Assembly: GCF_013408535.1 (NCBI RefSeq) | Contig: NZ_JACBZA010000001.1 | Location: 3,618,850 to 3,682,849, forward strand | Source: Actinopolymorpha cephalotaxi | Lineage (GTDB): Bacteria; Actinomycetota; Actinomycetes; Propionibacteriales; Actinopolymorphaceae | DNA: 64,000 nucleotides | Direction: 5' to 3' | The notes under the pieces: generated by a model | Told to the model about the DNA's origin: nothing | What the model saw: the letters and a program-made list of their open reading frames with translations, nothing else | Databases searched by the model: none | Shown here: piece by piece, positions 5,584-11,018 of the stretch | How positions within the stretch are numbered: the first letter of the stretch is position 1 | How the letters are laid out: each line of letters starts with the position of its first letter | Translations under genes and position numbers: made by a program

Positions 5584-5701
5584 ACTCGCTGGAGGACAGT
5601 GACGTACGCACGGGCGGTACCTTGTGCCCGTTGTGGATGTGCGCGGTCGCCTCCACCGAACTCCCGCGACACACTTGTGCCTCCTCGGACAGGAACGGGG
5701 T

Positions 5702-6274
5702 ATGGAGCCCAGCACTTCGTCGCCGCGGGAGCGTGAACAACGCTTCCGCGAGATCTACGAGGCGACGTACGTCGACCTGCTTCGGTTCGTGCGCAGACGC
5801 GTACATCCGACCCACGCCGAGGATGTGGTCGGTGACGTCATGCTCGTCGCGTGGCGCCGTCTCGACGATGCCCCCACCGAGCTGCCGGCAGCGCGCGCCT
5901 GGCTCTTCGGCGTGGCTCGCAAGACTCTGCAGAACACCCGGCGCCGCGACGACAGGCACGATGCCGTCGCGACCCGTCTGGCCCAGATCTGGCACGGTCC
6001 CGGCGAGAAGGGCCATCACCCCGACCTGGTTGCTCACCGGGTCGACATTGCCGCCGCCTGGCCGCTCCTGAGCGCGTCACACCAAGAGGCGATCACACTC
6101 TCCGCCCTCGACGGGCTCACAGCGCCCGAGGCAGCCGCCGTGCTGGGCATCTCGTCCACCGCCTTCCGCCTGCGGGTGTCCCGCGCCCGGCGCGCCCTGC
6201 GGAGCCACGTCGGCTCCACCACCGCCGGCGACCGTCTGCCTGGCCACACCGCTTTCGACAGGGGACCACGATGA
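5702..6274 (+). CDS. ECF-type RNA polymerase sigma factor
   Basis: 190 residues. Region 2 spans about residues 15-80 (FREIYEATYVDLLRFVRRRV, then AEDVVGDVMLVAWRR), and region 4 spans about 120-175 with the helix-turn-helix stretch LTAPEAAAVLGISSTAFRLRVSRARRAL. It would direct RNA polymerase to a small regulon. ATG 5702 is chosen because it directly precedes the sigma-2 domain and follows GGAACGGGG; longer in-frame starts add unrelated sequence. Its stop overlaps the next start (ATGA), so the pair is co-translated. The downstream membrane protein is the natural candidate for its partner. Confidence 0.88.
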   Translation: MEPSTSSPREREQRFREIYEATYVDLLRFVRRRVHPTHAEDVVGDVMLVAWRRLDDAPTELPAARAWLFGVARKTLQNTRRRDDRHDAVATRLAQIWHGPGEKGHHPDLVAHRVDIAAAWPLLSASHQEAITLSALDGLTAPEAAAVLGISSTAFRLRVSRARRALRSHVGSTTAGDRLPGHTAFDRGPR

Positions 6275-7079: not shown

Positions 7080-7466
7080 TCAGCCCACCGGCCCGGCCAC
7101 GCCGACGACGTTGCCCTCGGGGTCGCTGAACCGCCCGACGGCGAACCCACCGGACGTCGGCTCAGGGCCCAGCAGGCGCCTGCCACCCAGGCTCTCGGCC
7201 CTGCAGAGCGCGTCCTCGACGTCCGGCACCCCCACGTAGAACAGAACCCGGGGCTCGAAGCCGCTACCACCACCGACGCCGCCGTTGATGCCGGGCCCGT
7301 CGCCGGTGCTGCCGCCGTCCACGAAGTGGTAGTTGCCCGGCTGGGAGACCTGCTCCGTGGTCGCGTCACCGGTGCTGAACTCCCAGCCGAACAAGTCGGC
7401 GTAGTAGTCGCGTAGCGTCGCGGGGTCGGCCCCGATGATCTCGAAGTGCACTACCGGCATACCCAT
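7080..7466 (-). CDS. VOC (glyoxalase/bleomycin-resistance fold) family protein
   Basis: 128 residues with the beta-alpha-beta-beta-beta pattern of a single VOC protomer: VVHFEIIGADPATLRDYYADLFGW at the N-terminus and GRFSDPEGNVVGVAG at the C-terminus. Such proteins act as dimers holding a metal in lactoylglutathione-lyase-like or dioxygenase-like sites. No specific substrate can be inferred. ATG 7466 or ATG 7460 is the likely start; an AGGAAAGAGG ribosome site lies upstream. It ends two bases after the convergent sigma partner gene. Confidence 0.85.
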   Translation of the reverse strand: MGMPVVHFEIIGADPATLRDYYADLFGWEFSTGDATTEQVSQPGNYHFVDGGSTGDGPGINGGVGGGSGFEPRVLFYVGVPDVEDALCRAESLGGRRLLGPEPTSGGFAVGRFSDPEGNVVGVAGPVG

Positions 7467-7641
7467 GGTCACGCCTCTTTCCTAGTCGTGTTCCGGTCGG
7501 GTTCTGGTCGTTCATCTCGAACGTCGGGGCCGGCGTCCGGATATCGACACTTCCTCGCCACCGATCCGGAGGCGTCGTAGGGCCGAGGTCCCTCCCTCCC
7601 CGCGACCGGCGGTCGCCTCGAACCTCTGTTCGATCCACAAT

Positions 7642-8313
7642 GTGGCGGTGGGACAGCAGCGGAGATACGGCAAGCAGGCGGTCGACGGCTACGAAGTACC
7701 CACCGGGCAGCGTCGGCAGCAACTGGAGGGGGCGGTCGACGCCATCCACCAGCACGTACGCCAGACGCCGTACGGCGGGATCTACTCAGGCGACGGCACC
7801 TGGCGCGCACCGGTCGACGACAAGCTGCTGGCGCCCATGCTCGAGGGACCGGACCGGGTACGCCATGGCGAACGTGCCGACGGGGCGGACACCATCCTCG
7901 CCGCCCACCCCGCCGAGTCCCGGGAGGACGTCCAGGATCGGCTGTACCGGTCCCGCCACTTCGCCTCTCCCCGCATGCTCACCCGTCACCGCATCGCCGA
8001 GATCCTCTACGCCGGCATCGGCACCGGCCACCTCGAACCCGTCCCGGCCGCTCGCGTCGACGACACCGTTGACCTGATGCTCCACGCGATGGCTCGCGGA
8101 CGGCTCCACACCAGGATGCTCGCCGCGCACGGCCACGGCCTGCGTCAGTGGCTCGGCCTCCCCGACGGTGAGTGGACCGACGCCGACGACGAGGCGGCGA
8201 AGAGGGGCCACGCGATGTGCGCGACGGCGGCCTTCTCGTGGCGGGGCGCCGAGTCCGCTTCCGGCCTCCGCCACGATCGACGCGGCGCCCGATCTCTTCC
8301 CACGAATATGTGA
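7642..8313 (+). CDS. Unrecognised soluble protein
   Basis: 223 residues with no family I recognise. The first ~180 residues look like a folded, mostly helical protein (EGAVDAIHQHVRQTPYGGIY and RIAEILYAGIGTGHLEPVPA are typical coding stretches). The last ~35 residues are Arg/Ala-rich and less convincing. GTG 7642 is the annotated start, and GTG 7648 is an alternative. There is no signal peptide or membrane segment. The gene stands alone ahead of a very small membrane protein. Confidence 0.55.
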   Translation: MAVGQQRRYGKQAVDGYEVPTGQRRQQLEGAVDAIHQHVRQTPYGGIYSGDGTWRAPVDDKLLAPMLEGPDRVRHGERADGADTILAAHPAESREDVQDRLYRSRHFASPRMLTRHRIAEILYAGIGTGHLEPVPAARVDDTVDLMLHAMARGRLHTRMLAAHGHGLRQWLGLPDGEWTDADDEAAKRGHAMCATAAFSWRGAESASGLRHDRRGARSLPTNM

Positions 8314-8590: not shown

Positions 8591-9118
8591 TCAGCGCGGG
8601 TCGGCCAGCCGGCCGTGCTCCCAGTCCCACGTACGGCCGTCGAGGAGTTCGCGCGCGGCGTCGAGATGGCCCGCGTGAGCGGCCGTCTCGACCAGGACGT
8701 GGTCCAGCACCTCGAGGAAGTTGTTCAGGCGCCAGTCGCCGAACACGCCCTCGGGCCACCATGCCGGTGGGGTGTCCAGCGGCAGCTCGCGGACGGCGGC
8801 GATGGCCTCCGTGCACACCCGCCGGTACGTGTCGAGGACGCTCGCCGCCGAAACCGACGGCGGCACGTGGAAGTCGTCGTCCACGTCCGGCTCGGTGCGG
8901 ACACCGGTCATCACCGCGACGAACCAGAACCGCGTCATGGCGGTCAGGTGCGAGACCATGCCGGCGCAGGACCAGCCCGACGGCAGGACCGGCCGGCGGA
9001 GGGAGTCCTCGGACAGGCCGTCGAGGATGCCCAGAATCCGGCGCTGCTGCGCGGCCAGGGAGAGCAACAGGGTGTCGGCGGTCATGACGGACAGTTGAAC
9101 GGGCGCCTGAGCGGTCAT
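8591..9118 (-). CDS. DinB/mycothiol-dependent maleylpyruvate isomerase-fold protein
   Basis: 175 residues of the DinB four-helix bundle. The N-terminal helix holds LLLSLAAQQRRILGILDGLSE, followed by SGWSCAGMVSHLTAMTRFW, which carries the first metal-ligand His (SHLT). The third helix holds DHVLVETAAHAGHLDAARELLDG with the HxxxH-type metal ligands. Members use mycothiol or act as damage-response thiol transferases. ATG 9118 follows GGAGGAG at good spacing. The promoter-like block upstream (9176-9209) is a mirror copy of the one ahead of the ECF42 unit, so this gene is probably controlled by that sigma factor. Confidence 0.88.
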   Translation of the reverse strand: MTAQAPVQLSVMTADTLLLSLAAQQRRILGILDGLSEDSLRRPVLPSGWSCAGMVSHLTAMTRFWFVAVMTGVRTEPDVDDDFHVPPSVSAASVLDTYRRVCTEAIAAVRELPLDTPPAWWPEGVFGDWRLNNFLEVLDHVLVETAAHAGHLDAARELLDGRTWDWEHGRLADPR

Positions 9119-9175: not shown

Positions 9176-9209
9176 GACGTCGGAGCCGCGGCCGCCACCT
9201 CGACACCGC
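9176..9209 (-). promoter_or_regulatory. ECF42-type promoter candidate for the DinB gene
   Basis: Read on the minus strand: GCGGTGTCGAGG, ten unrelated bases, GGCTCCGACGTC. TGTCGA and CGAC are 17 bases apart, as I recall for ECF42-group promoters (-35 TGTCGA, -10 CGA/TC). It is the exact mirror copy of the block at 9244-9277, differing only in the ten spacer bases. Confidence 0.65.
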
Positions 9210-9243
9210 TCGCAGACTCTTTTCGCGGGGAACGACGCGGCCG

Positions 9244-9277
9244 GCGGTGTCGAGGACGCGTCGACGGCTCCGACGTC
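9244..9277 (+). promoter_or_regulatory. ECF42-type promoter candidate for the YciI-ECF42 unit
   Basis: GCGGTGTCGAGG (9244-9255), ten bases, then GGCTCCGACGTC (9266-9277), giving TGTCGA-N17-CGAC. It lies about 90 bases ahead of the YciI gene and would give autoregulation. The two 12-base boxes are identical to those on the opposite strand at 9176-9209. Confidence 0.7.
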
Positions 9278-9369
9278 CCGGTCAGCAGGCAGGGTCGCGG
9301 CACCACCGCACCTGCCCGCATCGCAGAATCTCCCTACGACGGCACAGAGCCCGAAACGAGGACTTTCCG

Positions 9370-9762
9370 ATGAAGTACGTGATCCTGATCCACTCCAACC
9401 CCGAGCCCTGGGGCCACCCGACCTCGCTCTACACCGCCGAAGGACGGGCGCTCTCGAAGGAGCACCACGAGCAGGGCGACCGCTCGTTCGAGGCCATGCT
9501 GGAGGAGATCTCGGCGTCCGGGGAGCTGGTGACCGCCGAGGCGCTGGCCGACCCCGCGTCGTCCACGGTGCACAGGTGGACCCCGGACGGGCCCCTGGTC
9601 ACCGACGGCCCGTTCGCGGAGACCAAGGAACAGCTGGCCGGCTTCTTTCTGATCGACTGCGCGACCCGGCAGCGCGCGGAAGAGCTCGCCGCGCAGTTCG
9701 CCGGGCCCGGCAGTCACGTCGAACTCCGCCCGGCGATGTGGGCCGGCGGCGACGACCAGTGA
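9370..9762 (+). CDS. YciI/DGPF-domain protein, ECF42 partner
   Basis: 130 residues of the YCII-related DGPF family, an alpha+beta dimeric barrel. It has MKYVILIHSNPEPW at the start, the name-giving DGPFAETKEQLAGFFLIDC at mid-length and HVELRPAMW near the end. Genes of this family sit next to ECF42 sigma factors across actinobacteria, although their biochemical role is unsettled. ATG 9370 follows CGAGGAC. Its stop overlaps the sigma start (GTGA at 9759-9762), so the two are translationally coupled. Confidence 0.92.
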   Translation: MKYVILIHSNPEPWGHPTSLYTAEGRALSKEHHEQGDRSFEAMLEEISASGELVTAEALADPASSTVHRWTPDGPLVTDGPFAETKEQLAGFFLIDCATRQRAEELAAQFAGPGSHVELRPAMWAGGDDQ

Positions 9763-11018
9763 CCGACTTCGAGGACGTGTGGCGCGAGTGCGCGCCGCAC
9801 GTCCTCGCCGCGCTGGTCCGCCGCTACGGCGACTTCGACACCGCCGAGGACGCGGTGCAGGAGGCGTTGCTCGCGGCGGCCCGGCAGTGGCCGGCCGACG
9901 GCATGCCGGACAACCCGAGGGGCTGGCTGGTCAGGGTCGCCTCCCGGCGGCTGGTCGACCACTGGCGGGCCGACCAGGCCCGGGCCGACCGGGAGGATCT
10001 GGTCGCCCGGCGCACCCCGGCGCGGGCGTTCGTCGCCCCGGCCGCCGACGCCCCGGCCGGCAGCGAACGGGACGATTCGTTGACGCTCCTGTTGTTGTGC
10101 TGCCACCCGGCCCTGCCCCGGCCGTCCCAGGTGTCGTTGACGTTGCGGGCGGTCGGCGGGCTGAGCACGGCGCAGATCGCCCGCGCGTTCCTGGTGCCCG
10201 AGGCCACCATGGCCCAGCGGATCAGCCGGGCGAAGGCCCGGCTACGGCAGGTCGGCGCGCGGTTCACCGTGCCCGCAGCCGACGAGCTGCCCGAGCGGGT
10301 GGCCGTGGTCGCCCACGTGCTGTACCTGATCTTCACCGAGGGGCACACCGCCACTTTCGGGACCAGCCTGACCGACACCTCCCTCGCGGAGGAGGCGATC
10401 CGGCTGACCCGTCAACTGCGCCGTCACCTGCCGGCGGCCGGCGAGGTGAGCGGGCTGCTGGCGCTGATGCTGCTCACCGACGCCCGTCGGGCCGCCCGTA
10501 GCCGCCCCGACGGTTCACTCGTGCCGCTGGCCGAGCAGGACCGCTCGCTGTGGGACCAGGATCTGATCGGCGAGGGAGTCCGGCTGGTGGAGGCGGCGCT
10601 GCCGAGCGGTCCGGTGGGTCCGTACCAACTACAGGCGGCGATCGCGGCCGTGCACGCTGAGGCACGGACCGCGGCCGAGACCGACTGGCCGCAGATCGAG
10701 GCGCTGTACGCCATGCTGCACGACCTCACACCCGGCCCGGTGGTCACGCTCAACCACGCCGTCGCGGTGGCGGAGGTGTCCGGTCCGGGCGCGGCCCTGC
10801 GGATGATCGAGCCGCTGCTCTCCGACCGGCGGCTGCGTCACCACCATCGCCTGCACGCCGTGCATGCTCACCTGCTGGAACTGGAGGGCCGGTACGACGA
10901 GGCCCGGGCCACCTACGTGCTCGCGGCCCGGCTGACCACCAGCATCCCGGAGCAGCGCTACCTCAACGCCCGGGCGGCCGGCCTTGGCGAGGCTCAGGGG
11001 CTCGAGGGCCCGTCCTAG
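9759..11018 (+). CDS. ECF42-group sigma factor with TPR-like C-terminal extension
   Basis: 419 residues. The sigma-2 domain covers about residues 5-75 (YGDFDTAEDAVQEALLAAARQWP, then NPRGWLVRVASRRLVDHWR). The sigma-4 domain covers about 110-165 (LTLRAVGGLSTAQIARAFLVPE). A ~250-residue extension contains the conserved LYLIFTEGHTATFG, ALMLLTDARRAAR and LNHAVAVAEVSGPGAAL segments and a tetratricopeptide-like end. That architecture and the adjacent DGPF gene define ECF42, in which the extension rather than a separate anti-sigma factor modulates activity. GTG 9759 starts at the sigma-2 domain. The 3' end overlaps the convergent GlsB gene by four bases. Confidence 0.93.
   Translation: MTDFEDVWRECAPHVLAALVRRYGDFDTAEDAVQEALLAAARQWPADGMPDNPRGWLVRVASRRLVDHWRADQARADREDLVARRTPARAFVAPAADAPAGSERDDSLTLLLLCCHPALPRPSQVSLTLRAVGGLSTAQIARAFLVPEATMAQRISRAKARLRQVGARFTVPAADELPERVAVVAHVLYLIFTEGHTATFGTSLTDTSLAEEAIRLTRQLRRHLPAAGEVSGLLALMLLTDARRAARSRPDGSLVPLAEQDRSLWDQDLIGEGVRLVEAALPSGPVGPYQLQAAIAAVHAEARTAAETDWPQIEALYAMLHDLTPGPVVTLNHAVAVAEVSGPGAALRMIEPLLSDRRLRHHHRLHAVHAHLLELEGRYDEARATYVLAARLTTSIPEQRYLNARAAGLGEAQGLEGPS

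Follow-up and report, generated by a model that had tools for sequence, protein, structure and literature searches.

An inverted repeat with the make-up of two divergent ECF42-type promoters between a DinB/MST gene and the yciI–sigma factor genes of Actinopolymorpha cephalotaxi

The inverted sites and their flanking genes

The window analysed here, a 64,000-nt stretch of the Actinopolymorpha cephalotaxi genome, contains a DinB-superfamily gene and a yciI–sigma factor gene pair that point away from each other. The gap between the DinB/MST gene and yciI carries the sequence GCGGTGTCGAGG-N10-GGCTCCGACGTC twice, in inverted orientation, at 9176-9209 on the minus strand and at 9244-9277 on the plus strand. 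The features of this region are as follows.

8591..9118, minus strand: DinB-superfamily protein with MST (PF04978, E 8.7e-29) as its best Pfam match; the −10 of site A ends 60 nt before its start codon
9176..9209, minus strand: site A, promoter-like, toward MST/DinB, GCGGTGTCGAGGTGGCGGCCGCGGCTCCGACGTC; −35 TGTCGA at 9205..9200, N17, −10 CGAC at 9182..9179
9210..9243, no strand: centre between sites A and B
9244..9277, plus strand: site B, promoter-like, toward yciI-ecf42, GCGGTGTCGAGGACGCGTCGACGGCTCCGACGTC; −35 TGTCGA at 9248-9253, N17, −10 CGAC at 9271-9274
9278..9369, plus strand: yciI leader
9370..9762, plus strand: YciI/DGPF protein containing DGPFAETKE (PF03795, YCII, E 2.6e-11); the −10 of site B ends 95 nt before its start codon
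9759..11018, plus strand: ECF42-type sigma factor of 419 aa with regions 2 and 4, DUF6596 and a long C-terminal extension

The DinB/MST protein matched PF04978 (mycothiol-S-transferase, MST) over residues 17-161 of 175 with a score of 101.3 bits (cut-off 27), scored 30.4 against NCBIfam TIGR03083 (mycothiol-dependent maleylpyruvate isomerase family), which is below the cut-off of 50, and gave one weak DinB-like match (3di5, E 0.00089) when its sequence was searched against solved structures. The gene product is probably a detoxification enzyme. On the other side, the GTG start of the gene for the stress-type sigma factor overlaps the yciI stop. Sigma regions 2 and 4 matched PF04542 (E 3.4e-11) and PF08281 (E 8.6e-11), and the protein scored 44.2 bits against the NCBIfam sigma70-ECF model (cut-off 42.9). 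The region 4 match stops at residue 162 of 419, DUF6596 spans residues 180-280 (E 1.5e-33), and the protein has the C-terminal extension of ~200 residues expected of an ECF42 member, in which Pfam found no TPR family at E<=0.001. The further characteristics of this group, namely ECF regions 2 and 4, an adjoining YciI/DGPF gene and TGTCGA / CG[AT]C upstream, are likewise present. Two other frames of the window are recorded here as side observations: the frame at 7642-8313 (plus strand), between the glyoxalase and MST genes, has no Pfam family and an 86% identical counterpart in the related genome G005, and the frame at 5624-6274 (plus strand) resembles, by eye, a second ECF-type sigma factor.

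Promoters of ECF42 sigma factors have the consensus TGTCGA at −35 and CG[AT]C at −10. The initial annotation had described two opposite copies with identical 12-base boxes, differing in the ten spacer bases only, and had read TGTCGA-N17-CGAC in each; both the coordinates and the letters bore this out, with 5 of 34 positions differing between sites A and B, all within the spacer. The two sites sit inside an inverted repeat with 57-nt arms that are 75% complementary. A dyad within a single site was absent (6 and 8 self-matches of 34 in sites A and B, respectively).

The inverted pair is far beyond chance. With up to 3 mismatches, the full pattern matched twice in the window and not once in 100 dinucleotide shuffles, and throughout the 6.86-Mb genome it matched sites A and B only, the reversed-pattern control giving 0. 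By itself, the short motif TGTCGA-N16/18-CGAC is weak and not significant in the window, where it occurred at 3 places versus 1.12 expected and 13 of 100 shuffles reached 3. A genome search with TGTCGA-N16/18-CGA[CT] had been put forward as a way to list the regulon. The CGAC form was too unspecific to delimit a regulon, with 181 places against 50 in the reversed-pattern control, so we dropped it for that use. All but 13 of the 181 places had N16 or N18. The 13 places with TGTCGA-N17-CGAC (control 5) were inspected for downstream frames and four were kept; of the other nine, those whose position inside or close to a frame was, by eye, atypical for a promoter were dropped, and the rest were not followed.

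Conservation within the genus and further sites

Our genus sample comprised six genomes, the one under study (G000) and five others (G001-G005). An MST ortholog (E <= 1e-40) was found in four of the six, and alignment of the intergenic region among these relatives showed both sites kept in all four. Site B was present in all five genomes that have a sigma relative above 81% identity. One of these, G002 (sigma relative 81.7%, YciI 75.4%), has a sulfotransferase-family gene opposite yciI and keeps the yciI site only, which shows, in this one genome, that the site on the MST side depends on its neighbouring gene. G001 has no sigma relative above 64%.

Across the four aligned intergenic regions, mean pairwise identity reached 1.00 and 0.96 in the −10 12-mers and 0.81 and 0.88 in the −35 12-mers, with invariant hexamers; the two spacers averaged 0.70 and 0.75, the centre 0.51 and the MST leader 0.48, the reference level being 0.77 at the fourfold sites of the sigma gene (1123/1458 comparisons). 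The eight paired genus sites share the core TGTCGA-N11-CGGCTCCGACGT; between species there is variation in the outer GCGG and in the GG that follows TGTCGA. The yciI leader, at 0.88 pairwise identity among the four species, lies above the sigma fourfold sites and is about as conserved as the boxes, so that on the yciI side conservation alone cannot single out the boxes. An RNA element in this leader was also considered and found no support in the fold test (z −0.42; 59 of 200 shuffles folded equally well). Separately, the otherwise variable centre of the four-species alignment contains an invariant T-tract at 9220-9223, which may be an UP-like element.

The 57-nt complementary arms could alternatively belong to a DNA or RNA structure, such as a cruciform or a bidirectional terminator, or to the remnant of a mobile element, and an Rfam microRNA-family match covers 9177-9276. 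That match, at 28.4 bits far under the gathering score of 100, probably reflects the hairpin shape; the Rfam search returned three matches at E<=1, all of them far under their gathering scores. We consider such an origin of the repeat extremely improbable: the repeat is located between the starts of divergent genes, its boxes stay while spacers and centre diverge, and nowhere else in its own genome does the full motif recur with 3 or fewer mismatches. Moreover, if the promoters are real, transcripts would start beyond their own −10, so that no RNA would hold both arms. The initial annotation had favoured two promoters over a cruciform or mobile element, and the conserved hexamers and −10 boxes next to diverging spacers and centre support that choice. 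It is further supported by the varying distance between the paired sites (see below), by the absence of a palindrome in either site, by the −10 boxes 60 and 95 nt before the start codons, and by G002, which lacks the MST neighbour and keeps only the yciI site.

Promoter-like sites of the same kind were found at further genes, with a longer pattern, TGTCGA-N12-GGCTCCGACGTC, hereafter the extended motif. It matched 21 places of the own genome with up to 3 mismatches (reversed-pattern control 5) and four places with up to 2, which precede the MST gene, yciI, a serine hydrolase gene and a glyoxalase-like gene at 60, 95, 57 and 50 nt, respectively, from the end of the −10 box to the start codon. 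The glyoxalase-like gene lies in the same window, and neither its site nor the wider pattern appeared in the initial annotation.

7080..7472, minus strand: glyoxalase-like protein, behind the site at 7523-7549
7523..7549, minus strand: third site, TGTCGA-N17-CGAC; compared with the extended motif over 7520-7549 it has 2 mismatches, and the start codon of the glyoxalase-like gene follows 50 nt later

Relatives of the glyoxalase-like protein (E <= 1e-25) occur in five of the six genus genomes, and an exact TGTCGA-N17-CG[AT]C stands 50-68 nt before the aligned start in four of these five orthologs, the site being missing in G004. The G001 site stands before a glyoxalase–yciI gene pair. We regard the gene at 7080-7472 as a probable further member of the predicted regulon. 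The fourth site (L085, G000:C1:6563908-6563937) is a perfect extended motif, with 0 mismatches, before the serine hydrolase gene (PF06821); one of three orthologs has this site and two do not, and it is thus not conserved. Across the six genus genomes the extended motif occurred 16 times with up to 2 mismatches, 13 times before an MST, yciI, glyoxalase or hydrolase gene and 3 times outside this regulon (L072 and L078 in G001, L080 in G002).

DinB-type genes also occur elsewhere in G002 (47%) and, as a second copy, in G003 (43%). No TGTCGA-N17-CG[AT]C was found in the 8-9 kb surrounding these two genes, which indicates that not every DinB gene belongs to the regulon. A place with 3 mismatches to the extended motif (TGTCGA-N17-CGACGTC; L001, G000:C1:513482-513511) lies 93 nt before a long frame, and a similar place is present in G003 at C1:1541001; the L001 place may be coding sequence.

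The mirrored layout in other genomes and the sigma factor that would read it

To survey the layout more widely we used a divergent-pair pattern by motif alone, with TGTCGA-N17-CGAC on both sides and 25-55 bp between them (centre-to-centre distances of 52-82 permitted), in two samples, 391 genomes from the order and 394 from the class, which together make 739 distinct genomes. Because the pattern is strict, the counts should be taken as minimum values. It was matched in 16 genomes of the order and 3 of the class, the own genome being in both samples, which makes 18 genomes with one locus each; the class-level reversed-pattern control matched one genome, and most of the 739 genomes have no such pair. 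In 17 of the 18 cases a YciI/DGPF gene stood on one side; Pfam identified it at the window, L050, L061, L137 and L138, and tblastn with these as queries identified the remaining 12. The eighteenth locus (L060, G186:C1:3318503-3318603) has no YciI gene; inverted copies of a TTTCGACAAGCTCAACGACC-like sequence mimic the pair there, and by eye it looks like an inverted repeat family.

The gene opposite YciI was MST at the 4 genus loci, an alpha/beta hydrolase at 10 loci, and an MFS transporter (G299), a DUF998 protein (G473) or a RibD_C protein (G540) at single loci. The ten hydrolase loci all lie in a different family of this order, f3/g5, in 10 of its 38 searched genomes. Of the 17 loci, 7 have an ECF42 gene downstream of yciI. 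At the ten f3/g5 loci no sigma gene turned up next to yciI, with 3.2-3.8 kb searched on each side at seven of them and 1.5 kb at three; the same ten genomes contain 12-21 relatives of the window sigma factor at E <= 1e-60. In the genus (4 loci) and in f3/g5 (10 loci), centre-to-centre distances ranged from 56 to 82 bp.

A large imperfect inverted repeat between divergent genes is also what a single operator for a dimeric or tetrameric regulator of both genes would look like, and there is a precedent in the mycobacterial DNA-binding regulator SiwR, which, according to the accessible part of its description, controls DinB-superfamily genes divergently (PMC10693628). An operator of this kind is very unlikely here. 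The centre-to-centre distance varied from 53 to 82 bp over the 17 YciI loci, in a search that allowed 52-82; unpaired sites of this type occur at yciI in G002 and at the glyoxalase and hydrolase genes; and the self-match counts given above leave no dyad inside a site. None of the six window proteins searched in Pfam fell into a repressor family, and for two of them Pfam gave no family.

Read as a pair of promoters, the control sequence, joined to MST here and to different partner genes in relatives, has the appearance of a small module that can be reused. Whether the mirrored ECF42 pair is a conserved actinobacterial bidirectional platform, in which DGPF is fixed and the opposite slot is exchanged (MST, alpha/beta hydrolase, MFS, DUF998, RibD_C), is a question on which we see the balance as even. 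Such a platform needs no adjacent sigma gene to persist, and the constant partner of the variable gene would then be the DGPF protein and not the sigma factor.

The genome encodes 11 DUF6596 sigma factors, the one in the window and ten others, and the promoters might be of ECF42 type and yet be read by at least one of the ten others, with the adjacent sigma factor idle or only partly engaged. We compared the upstream sites at 10 of the 11 loci. An exact TGTCGA-N16/17-CG[AT]C on the gene strand was present at four, L020 (the window), L021, where it lies several hundred nt from yciI, L022 and L023; L015 to L018 had one-mismatch places only, and L019 had none. Paralog L014, 58% identical to the window sigma factor, carries an identical −10, GGCTCCGAC, upstream of its yciI and has one mismatch in the −35, as would be expected if another member could read such sites. 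The mirrored pairs of f3/g5 point the same way, having no ECF42 gene at any of the seven loci with 3.2-3.8 kb on each side and numerous relatives elsewhere. The glyoxalase site of G001, a genome with no sigma relative above 64%, implies that other ECF42 members must read some sites. Against a general takeover by the paralogs, the extended motif before yciI goes with orthologs of the window sigma factor in the genus (5/5), and the three paralogs with an exact upstream place carry another −10 (GTTCGTC at L021 and L022, GTACGAC at L023). These few sites hint at more than one −10 class and so at a partial separation of the paralogs, and we rate reading by one or more of the other ten sigma factors, with the adjacent one idle or only partly engaged, as rather unlikely.

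Our interpretation, held with high confidence, is that the inverted repeat represents two separate, divergent predicted ECF42-type promoters that share one intergenic region, and that the sigma factor encoded at 9759-11018 most likely acts at both.

Predicted regulon and relation to known ECF42 systems

We infer the acting sigma factor, the transcription, its start points and the inducing signal as follows. Once active, an ECF42 sigma factor, which is most likely the product of 9759-11018, would guide RNA polymerase to both sites. The promoter at site B would produce the yciI-ecf42 mRNA and thereby positive autoregulation, and the promoter at site A would produce the mRNA of the DinB/MST effector enzyme. 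The same sigma factor would probably also activate the glyoxalase-like gene (7080-7472) as well as, in this species, the distant serine hydrolase gene, the outcome being a small regulon of detoxification-type enzymes. The inducing signal could be electrophile or thiol stress.

For the ECF42 system of Streptomyces venezuelae, the promoter motif and autoregulation have reportedly been verified, and its DGPF operon is known. The window resembles this system in the sigma regions 2 and 4, the long C-terminal extension, the adjacent YciI/DGPF gene and the TGTCGA and CG[AT]C elements ~17 bp apart upstream of the operon. It differs in the second, mirrored copy that faces DinB/MST and in the glyoxalase-like and serine hydrolase genes that share the site. 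Three S. venezuelae proteins, Sven_0747, Sven_4377 and Sven_7131, are named as ECF42 members with YciI/DGPF genes (Liu et al. 2018, cited in the accessible text of PMC8999054). The same review, in that text, describes the C-terminal extension as essential for ECF42 activity and its partner as still unidentified, and sees a possible regulatory role for the YCII protein.

A second comparison is offered by RpoE10, the ECF42 sigma factor of Sinorhizobium meliloti, as presented in the available part of PMC6180224. Its gene is downstream of a YCII gene, as in the window, and its overexpression raised, among others, glyoxalase-like genes with ECF42-type motifs; the sites, TGTCGG...CGTC/CGTCC, are of like kind to the window motif. 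Overexpression did not raise the yciI operon of RpoE10 itself, and autoregulation is therefore not universal. Unlike the window, the RpoE10 study describes, in the part available, no mirrored promoter, and the word 'DinB' is absent from its main text. The window protein also resembles, in sequence alone, the mycothiol-S-transferase of the DinB superfamily treated in the accessible portion of PMC10950700, since it matches PF04978.

The kind of motif is thus already known, and the mirrored layout and the link to MST were not met in the literature searched. A mirrored ECF42 promoter together with an MST gene was not found among the matches listed in that literature, which included few subscription journals, nor in the accessible parts of PMC6180224, PMC8999054, PMC9205884, PMC7730460 and PMC8103513.

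ECF42 is a widespread sigma group, and its predicted targets here, MST, glyoxalase, serine hydrolase and DGPF, suggest that its output is the detoxification of reactive small molecules. The mirrored layout makes ECF42 outputs findable by pattern alone, with a DGPF gene at the site in 17 of the 18 matched genomes.
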